This document shows positions 6,701 to 12,345 of a stretch of DNA of 64,000 bases, piece by piece. The DNA is from Glandiceps talaboti. Lineage: Eukaryota > Hemichordata > Enteropneusta > Spengelidae. The DNA is taken from positions 15,888,322-15,952,321 of the forward strand of contig NC_135570.1 of assembly GCF_964340395.1 (NCBI RefSeq). Direction: 5' to 3'. Positions within the stretch are counted from its first letter, which is position 1; the number at the start of each line of letters is the position of its first letter. The position numbers were made by a program, and so were the translations under genes. Under the pieces are notes generated by a model, which saw nothing but the letters and a program-made list of their open reading frames with translations, made no database searches and was not told the origin of the DNA.

Positions 6701-9700
6701 TTTGGTGTAAAAACTTTTGCTGAAGGTAGGGTCTCTGACAGAAAGTGTCTGCAAAGAAAGTTAAAAGAGTTATAGGTTTGCAAAGACAGGTACAAAATGA
6801 AAATTGAAAGTCAGTTCCAGTCCGGTGATTTGAGGAAAGCATGGAATGGCCTTGCTGTTCTTTCTGGCAAACAGGAGAAAACGAACAAGAAGACAGAAGT
6901 GGTAGAAGCAAAGACATTCACTAATGAATTGGATGTCGTTTTGACACACATAACTTTCAACTGCAACAATAGAATGCTAGAAATATTGTAACAAGTAAAT
7001 TAGAGCAATCAGATATGCCACAAATATCAGAGATGGAGGTTAGTTTAAAGTTAAAGCGCATTAATCCTAGAAAAGCACTGGGTCCTGATAATATATCTGG
7101 TAGATTCCTTCGTCATTGTCATCTAGAAGTGGCTAGTATCTTCACTACACTTTTCAATTGGTCTATATCAACACATACTCTTCCAAGTCTGTGGAAAACA
7201 TCAGTCATTTCACCCGTTCCTTAGCACAACAATCCCACTAAGCTAAATGATTACAGACCAATAGCTTGGATTACTGACCAAGTTAAGAATCTTACTGACC
7301 CAGTTCAATTTGTGTACAGAGCTAAACAGATCAGTTGAAGACGCTGTAACAGTTACATCAAGCCCTTTCTTATCTGAAACAACCTTTAGCTTTAGTCTTT
7401 TGTCCGTATTTTATTTGTTGACTTTTCATCAGCTTTCAACACCATACAGTCACATCTGATGGTGAACAAGTTAAATGCAATGAATGAACACCCAAACATA
7501 ATACTCTGGGTGTTAGATTTTCTAACTAACAGACAGTAATATGTAAGAGTAAATGGGACAGGTGTGAATAATCATAATTTATCTACAACAGTGTCTAGTA
7601 TGCATAGTAAATCTACTGGTGCACCCCAGGGCTCAGTAATCTCTCCTGTTCTGTTCATTTTGTACACAAAAGCTCTAACAGCACAAGTGAAAAGGGACAG
7701 ATGGTCAAATATGCTGATGATACAGCATTTGGAGATTACTCAAATGATGAAAAACACTTTGAAAATCAAGTGCATCACTTAAAACAATGGTGTGAAGACA
7801 ACTCTCTAGAATTGAACACAAAGAAAACAAAAGAAATGGTAATTGACTTTAGGAGTGTTTGAAATTAAGTCTGAGGTTGTACAATGTGTTTCAATATACC
7901 CAGGGTTCTCCACTATTTTGAAAAATAAAGGGGTGAGCTAATTTACATATTACTTTGCATATCATTAGCATTTTTTTCAACTCTTAACATTAAAGAGTGA
8001 AAAAATGTTTTTTCAACAACTAAAAAAGGCCTACAATCAATTAAATTCCTATTTTATCCATTCATCAAACTAGAATACAAAGAAAAAATCAGGAAGGACT
8101 GAAGATTGACATCCATGTACTTACATGTCTAGTTAGCGAGCCTTTTGTAGATTTTGGCATCATGATACCTTCAATGTTATGTCAGATGAGATAAAACTGA
8201 AGAAATTGTCCTGACAACCATGTACAACTACAAGTAATTTATATGGGGAACAAAACAGTGGTCAACATCGCTAGAATTTAGAAAATATTGAAGTGGGCGA
8301 GTTCGTCACATACTATCATTTATCTTTGTGACAAACAAGGTCTATCGGGTTCAAAAATCTCGGGTTAAAAATAAAACTTATGGTTAATGTGTTTTTACCA
8401 TGTATGAGAGAGTGTTTGATATTTATTTAGTTACTACATGTATATTGTGCAGCATGTAACCTAGGACCTTTTGTTCAATTTCAATAAAGCCGAGTTTTAT
8501 CTAGGCCATCTTATGCAAATTTCAACGTTTATCAAAATGTGCAGTTTTAATTTAAATTATCAAATGTAATGGATGACTTGCAAGGCACCTGAACTCCAAT
8601 GCATGAACTTGAAGCCAACTATGATCAAAGATTGTTTACTTGTAAATACATACCAGTCATAATATGTTTAACAACAACAACAACAACAACAACAACAACA
8701 CATAGTCATAACAGAAAATTAAAGTTTACTGTCAACAGTTATGCCACAACGCCATTGATGCTTTTATTAGTATTTACCTTATTTATCTTTCCATAGCATT
8801 GGATTAAAAGAAATTGATGGTGTGAAACGACTATCTGGACCAGGACTAGATACTAAAGATGTACCTGGAGTGATGCAAGGAGGTGGAAAGTGGCCACACA
8901 GGTTGGTGAAATACTTAGTTTAACAATCTGTCATTACTAACTGACTCTCTATATCCTTTAAGGAGCATGAGATGTTTTAATGAAACTACTCAACATAAGT
9001 CATCAAAATATTTTTAGTGCTATGCCATGTTTTAAGACTTTACTTTAGTCAGATTGTTTTAGATTAATGTGTTTTGACTTTTTTCTCAGTTGATGAGTTT
9101 AAGTATTGATATTGTAATGTGATAGTCATTGATTTTATTTTAGGTGTTAATTTTTTGTCTGTCTTTTCATTCAAGTGAACTTTTATTTTGTCCATGTTGT
9201 GGTGTTTGTTTTGTACAATGTTATTGTTGGAGTCTGTTAATAGGCCATCCTCAGAAATAAATCAATAAATAAATTATCCGGTCCTTCAAAACTACATGAA
9301 CCAGATTTAAACTGAATGCCTTCCATAAAGGCAAAGTCTTTAGATTTTCATTCCTACACACAATTATTGTATTATTTTCAAGAAGTAAATCATATCAGCC
9401 AAAGCTTAGAGCTCAATGTTATATCAGTTGTTATCAGTTTTATTGACCTATTATCAGTGACATTGCAAATAGCTTTAGAGATGCAAACAATAACTTGCTG
9501 GCTTGATCACCAAGTCAGGTTTGTTGTACTTGAACAGCTTATAAGGCAAATCCGTCATGATAATTAGTAAATTTCCCCAAACTTTTGTAAATTTACGAAA
9601 TAACAAGGGACAGCAGAAACACAGCTCTCCTACCACTAACATCCTGAACTGAATGAATCGTACTTGTTTGGTCAAACTCTCTCTGTTCTGTATCAGATGT

Positions 9701-12345: not shown

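Follow-up and report, generated by a model that had tools for sequence, protein, structure and literature searches.

Intron 3 of the MZB1 gene of Glandiceps talaboti appears to carry, with a probability that we put at about 0.6, an acidic cassette exon (exon 4, 10845–11092, forward strand, 248 nt, delimited by splice-site scores and by a switch of reading frame) whose frame is broken by a net one base in the assembled allele. Its product would be a segment of about 80 residues in which Asp, Glu and Tyr abound, at a position where human MZB1 has none, and splicing would use the acceptor at 10845 together with the ordinary donor of exon 3 (8901). If the allele were functional, exon 4 would be read in a single frame, entered and left in phase 2, and an unbroken allele of this kind would insert slightly more than 80 acidic residues between the motif WPHR and the residues that the last exon encodes. 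With the allele as assembled, inclusion would lead to a premature stop and probably to nonsense-mediated decay (NMD), and skipping would yield the ordinary ER co-chaperone of 198 residues; the break itself may be a true allelic variant, the result of exon decay or an error of the assembly. A further-reaching version, in which the cassette is intact and regulated in the population, adds an acidic, Tyr-rich insert to an ER co-chaperone and happens to be frame-broken in the sequenced haplotype, so that it would serve as insert or as poison exon depending on the allele, is tentative and unlikely.

The MZB1 gene and its surroundings

The genome searched comprises 590 Mb in 47 contigs, and the window, that is, the whole stretch of DNA that was analyzed, covers 64 kb of one of them. 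On sequence comparison, the gene at 3551–12345 (forward strand) is an orthologue of MZB1/CNPY5 (pERp1) in an invertebrate deuterostome. The coding part of exon 1 (3551–3757) contains the CDAC motif and ends in the donor ACG/GTAAGT, and its N-terminus (MSTLSATIICVVVVSILVDVSCG) is hydrophobic and resembles a signal peptide by eye. Exon 2 (5234–5343) is covered by the alignment with human MZB1 and is flanked by two sites that score high on a matrix derived from this genome, both of them being part of its training set, as is the donor of exon 1. Exon 3 (8797–8901 at its canonical end) terminates in a tandem donor, CAG/GTTG/GTGAAA, with two GTs four bases apart, such that GTTGGT offers an alternative end at 8905. 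The last exon (exon 5, 12171–12345 including the stop, acceptor also in the training set) contributes the final three cysteines and the C-terminal KTEL, a KDEL-like, putative ER retrieval signal.

Joined as 1-2-3-5, these exons encode 198 residues ending in KTEL, and the only PDB match of this product up to E = 10 was human MZB1 (7aah, E = 8.7e-32, residues 37–184), with the alignment starting at residue 37, within exon 1. The collinearity with vertebrate MZB1 proposed in an earlier, sequence-only reading of this DNA is thereby borne out: the human alignment passes from WPHR to INQQC at the exon 3/5 junction with zero residues missing and no insert, and all six cysteines (CDAC, VC, QC, LC...C) align with human ones. 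The product also matched the Pfam family DUF3456, a family of saposin-like domains, at 26.9 bits against a cut-off of 21.1. A genome-wide protein search with MZB1 returned four matches, which are its own four exons, and at the sensitivity of that search the gene is single-copy.

Several other features were recorded around the gene and in the rest of the assembly. Intron 2 contains a reverse-transcriptase-like fragment (7611–7859, forward strand) with a YADD motif recognized by eye. A minisatellite of about 23 copies of a 40-bp unit (11121–12088, 78% matches) starts just 3' of exon 4 and fills most of what remains of intron 3, and a second tandem repeat (14927–16221) consists of 35 copies of a 37-bp unit with 97% matches. 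Further downstream, two exons at 42286–43475 (forward strand) resemble a Bax1-I membrane protein (Pfam PF01027), with E-values of 1.1e-5 and 1.1e-7 and scores that both miss the curated cut-off, and an open frame at 41360–42181 with no Pfam match looks like part of the same gene, possibly GHITM. On the reverse strand, an open frame at 23085–23600 matches the PA domain (PF02225, E = 6.6e-11), and a hydrophobic stretch lies close to the start of this frame. The mitochondrial contig (C40, 51 kb) holds three COX1 copies in tandem, 15,435 bases apart, an arrangement that is probably an assembly artefact of the circular genome. The mitochondrial COX1 contains 13 in-frame TGA codons and no AAA codon, four ATA codons stand at sites where Ile is usual, and the tRNA order around it is N(-), W, A(-), Y(-), COX1, S(-), the W tRNA being labelled SeC under the bacterial code that was applied. 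Judged by known mitochondrial codes and gene orders, this combination agrees best with a hemichordate.

Splice sites, reading frames and the probable break near 10878

Splice sites were scored with a matrix that drew on introns inferred in chaperonin, myosin and canopy genes (30 in all, 28 of them kept after 2 with bad profile continuity had been removed), to which two MZB1 donors (exons 1 and 2) and three MZB1 acceptors (exons 2, 3 and 5) were added; scoring was leave-one-out and the sites under test were kept out of training. It replaced a first, smaller matrix of 23 donor and 23 acceptor sites that was used without leave-one-out, and the introns behind both were placed by the best-looking GT/AG pair, which biases them toward strong sites. 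With the main matrix, 5.0% of the 3346 AGs of the window equalled or bettered the acceptor at 10845, and 4.3% of the 4392 GTs did so for the donor at 11092; among real sites, 9 of 31 acceptors and 3 of 30 donors, respectively, did not exceed these scores. The acceptor at 10878, which lacks a pyrimidine tract, scored -1.71, a value reached by 54.7% of the window AGs and exceeded by all but 1 of the 31 real acceptors. At the end of exon 3, the donor at 8901 (score 3.46) was equalled or bettered by 13.5% of window GTs, with 2 of 30 real donors no higher, and the donor at 8905 (score 2.27) by 20.6%; both are weak. With the first matrix, 10845 scored lower than all training acceptors; among the sites of intron 3 and its surroundings, 10845 ranked 19th and 10878 93rd of 193 AGs, and 11092 ranked 14th and 8905 85th of 210 GTs. 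The two matrices agree that 10845 is clearly a better acceptor than 10878 and that the sites of exon 4 are middling.

Six splice combinations of exon 3, the acidic exon and exon 5 were translated. Skipping (8901 to 12171) gives the 198 residues, joining 8905 to exon 5 ends prematurely at 152 residues, and only one of the four inclusions is in frame in the letters as assembled, namely donor 8905 with acceptor 10878 (271 residues); the three remaining inclusions end early, at 145 to 161 residues. The sequence-only reading had held that the stronger sites shift the frame and run into a stop, and joining 8901 to 10845 does meet one at 10906–10908 (forward strand), 184 nt upstream of the last exon junction. 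Stops farther upstream of the last junction than the usual limit of 50–55 nt trigger NMD, and an mRNA that includes exon 4 as assembled is likely to be an NMD target. Internal AGs from which a shorter exon would be read in the frame of the tail (for donor 8901, 10910 and 11054; for donor 8905, 10974, 10980, 10995 and 11043) were rejected as true acceptors, being like ordinary AGs or below them (32.7% to 93.9% of window AGs equal or better). Programmed -1 ribosomal frameshifting was likewise rejected, with no X XXY YYZ heptamer (Y = A or T) found in 10845–10912.

An exon of this kind might be a true poison exon, whose deliberate inclusion via 8901 and 10845 lowers MZB1 output through NMD. The position of the stop agrees with such a role, as does the weakness of the flanking sites, regulated exons usually being bordered by weak sites. 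The exon shares with known poison cassette exons the early stop upon inclusion, as assembled, but unlike them it retains a long coding-like frame in its remaining part, and a poison exon needs no long, acidic and strongly periodic frame 3' of its stop; we regard this explanation as unlikely.

In the cassette exon that we favor, the normal frame of exon 3 is coding-like in 10846–10878 and the frame shifted by one is coding-like after that. When a codon-position model was trained on 10878–11091 alone, the 33-nt head of the exon (10845–10877) received +5.21 bits in the frame of exon 3 as opposed to -4.42 and -7.05 in the others. The head as read in that frame (10846–10878) scored 6.35 bits, a value reached by 155 of the 62,874 33-mers of the window (93 of them open) and, within intron 3, by 7 of 1790 (2 of them open). 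Because a composition model trained on chaperonin genes gave all three frames negative scores and set the same frame ahead by a small margin (-0.27 bits, the others being at -0.76 and -5.32), and because chaperonin codon usage gave the head a negative score (-0.38 bits per codon), the coding nature of the head is suggestive and not proven. The simplest reading of these observations is one exon, 10845–11092, spliced to the ordinary end of exon 3 (8901) and carrying a net break of one base near 10878.

The sequence-only reading had mentioned a single-base sequence error as a proviso. The one-base break that this remark entails fits the data better than the splice toggle, and a real variant fits equally well as an error. 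The accuracy of the assembly was gauged on 135 chaperonin and myosin matches (29,427 bases), of which one pair lay less than 100 nt apart, in the same frame. No base-level frameshift was visible in these matches, in a test that sees only breaks inside matched stretches. Assembly errors thus measured seem rare, a few per cent or less for a given 248-nt exon if all breaks would show; breaks near match ends, or stops inside some matches, could escape the test. Since skipping of the exon still yields MZB1, a frame-breaking variant would be tolerated, and that this optional exon carries a real variant of one base seems at least as likely as an assembly error.

On the other hand, the exon could be a relic, a former coding exon that has decayed and is no longer spliced. 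A frame break within an otherwise coding-like block and splice sites of middling strength are what such a relic might display, but the break is apparently the only one in 248 nt and both sites stand at or above about 95% of the AGs and GTs of the window. Because of that single break and of splice sites that are still standing, any decay would have to be recent at most, and we regard a relic as improbable.

The interpretation put forward in the sequence-only reading was a toggle between two proteins, in which donor 8905 together with acceptor 10878 produces a 271-residue acidic isoform and the ordinary donor skips the exon to give 198 residues. Its arithmetic is right for the assembled letters, and it has in its favor that it is the sole in-frame inclusion among the six combinations, that exon 3 ends in a tandem donor of the GTNNGT type (CAG/GTTG/GT) and that the first donor, 8901, is itself weak. 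According to one study of such donors, a GT four bases downstream is likelier to be used than one that shifts the site by three bases, yet it shifts the frame (PMC1779574). In the present gene, the second donor scores poorly and its use is putative. The toggle is not supported because the site scores are poor, acceptor 10878 being at the level of random AGs and donor 8905 unremarkable, and because the 33 nt that it omits look coding in the frame of exon 3 and are left unaccounted for. It would additionally need two weak sites to be used jointly, as each of the pairings 8905/10845, 8901/10878 and 8905/12171 terminates prematurely. Such a switch is therefore given very little credence.

The acidic block as probable coding sequence

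The open Asp/Glu/Tyr-rich block that had been reported between exons 3 and 5 is present, its coordinates having been good to within one base. It lies in intron 3 at 10878–11093 (forward strand) and comprises 72 codons, the last of which is completed by exon 5 in the mRNA, with 19 Asp or Glu and 6 Tyr and a pI of about 4.05. Its length is not beyond chance, as 790–977 of 2000 simulated introns contained an open stretch of 71 codons or longer. By contrast, in four settings with 2000 simulated introns each, no intron had such a stretch with a 60-residue segment of at least 30% Asp plus Glu, a threshold that is the block's own value. The codon periodicity of the block (chi-squared 33.4) was reached by 0 of 2000 Markov sequences, and its composition is marked by 41% G at codon position 1 and 49% A at position 2. 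In the same test, the values of MZB1 exons 1, 2, 3 and 5 were reached by 84, 142, 8 and 24 of 2000 simulations, and those of two other open frames of intron 3 by 344 and 595. Acidity and periodicity are not independent evidence, GAN codons driving both, and the coding tests were picked after the earlier reading had singled the block out.

Across the window, 7 of 1204 overlapping segments were as periodic as the block: two in a repeat near 36956, one at 40652 and four in the acidic frame at 46479–46853. This last open frame (reverse strand), likewise strongly acidic and strongly periodic, had no Pfam match and is likely to be a real exon. With a codon score based on the chaperonin genes, the block ranked 22nd among the 372 frames that stay open for 50 codons or more, and its synonymous codon choice showed no excess (rank 99 of the 372). 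As assembled, its frame is continuous to the donor when entered at 10878, but not when entered at the stronger acceptor, 10845. Taken together, the block probably is, or lately was, a coding exon.

Searches for relatives of the block gave little. The sequence-only reading had raised alignment to a transposon as a check, and no sign of one was found: the block has one genome match by DNA, in a search that skips very common words, and one by protein, and a repeated transposon is for that reason an unlikely source. No Pfam family matched above its cut-off; the best hit, PTM1-like_N (E = 0.12), reached 12.9 bits where 27.4 are required and is attributed to chance. A PDB search with the block gave no match up to E = 10, and a search of viral contigs for relatives returned 8 pattern matches, zero of which were confirmed. 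Derivation of the block by duplication of exon 2, 3 or 5 was not supported (678, 446 and 304 of 2000 shuffles, respectively, scored equally high). That the block is a chance open frame in an intron, a reading with which the commonness of runs of such length and the lack of a Pfam family above cut-off or a matching PDB chain would agree, is scarcely credible given an acidity and a periodicity far beyond chance and a donor at its end that only 4.3% of GTs equal or beat. Calcium binding, suggested in the sequence-only reading, and tyrosine sulfation may be considered candidate roles of the acidic segment in view of its composition.

MZB1 and canopy proteins compared

The G. talaboti product shares with human MZB1 (7aah) the collinearity over residues 37–184, the six cysteines and a KDEL-like tail, and such a tail is given among the features of the MZB1/canopy family in a published account (PMC3893805). 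The human MZB1 gene is described as having four exons (PMC13003553); the gene of G. talaboti likewise has four once exon 4 is left out, a comparison by exon number. The difference is at the exon 3/5 junction, where human MZB1 lacks any residues that would correspond to the insert of exon 4.

The canopy proteins CNPY1-4 belong to the same Pfam family, and paralogues were found here on contigs C17, C6 and C1. In those on C17 and C6, the boundary between two successive matches falls at profile position 112–113, and the single matched exon of the one on C1 begins at position 112. These profile positions suggest that intron 3 may be old. No counterpart of exon 4 was found by tblastn in the canopy paralogues (best E of 1.1, in three stretches of 4.5 to 6 kb), and searches of a limited set of papers retrieved none on MZB1 in hemichordates and, among the results listed, nothing relevant on MZB1 in invertebrates. 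Exon 4 is best described as a modest case, a probable cassette exon with a broken frame that is apparently specific to the lineage and sits in a gene of a known chaperone family. More generally, an open frame with one workable splice combination does not amount to a switch until the strength of the sites and the frame signal have been measured.

Members of the MZB1 family bind GRP94/BiP and aid secretion, and hemichordates are not known to have immunoglobulins. In immune cells of vertebrates, MZB1 is described as aiding the production of antibodies, integrins and interferon (PMC3893805, PMC13003553). An acidic insert in an invertebrate orthologue, if true, would bear on how this chaperone is built where antibodies are absent.
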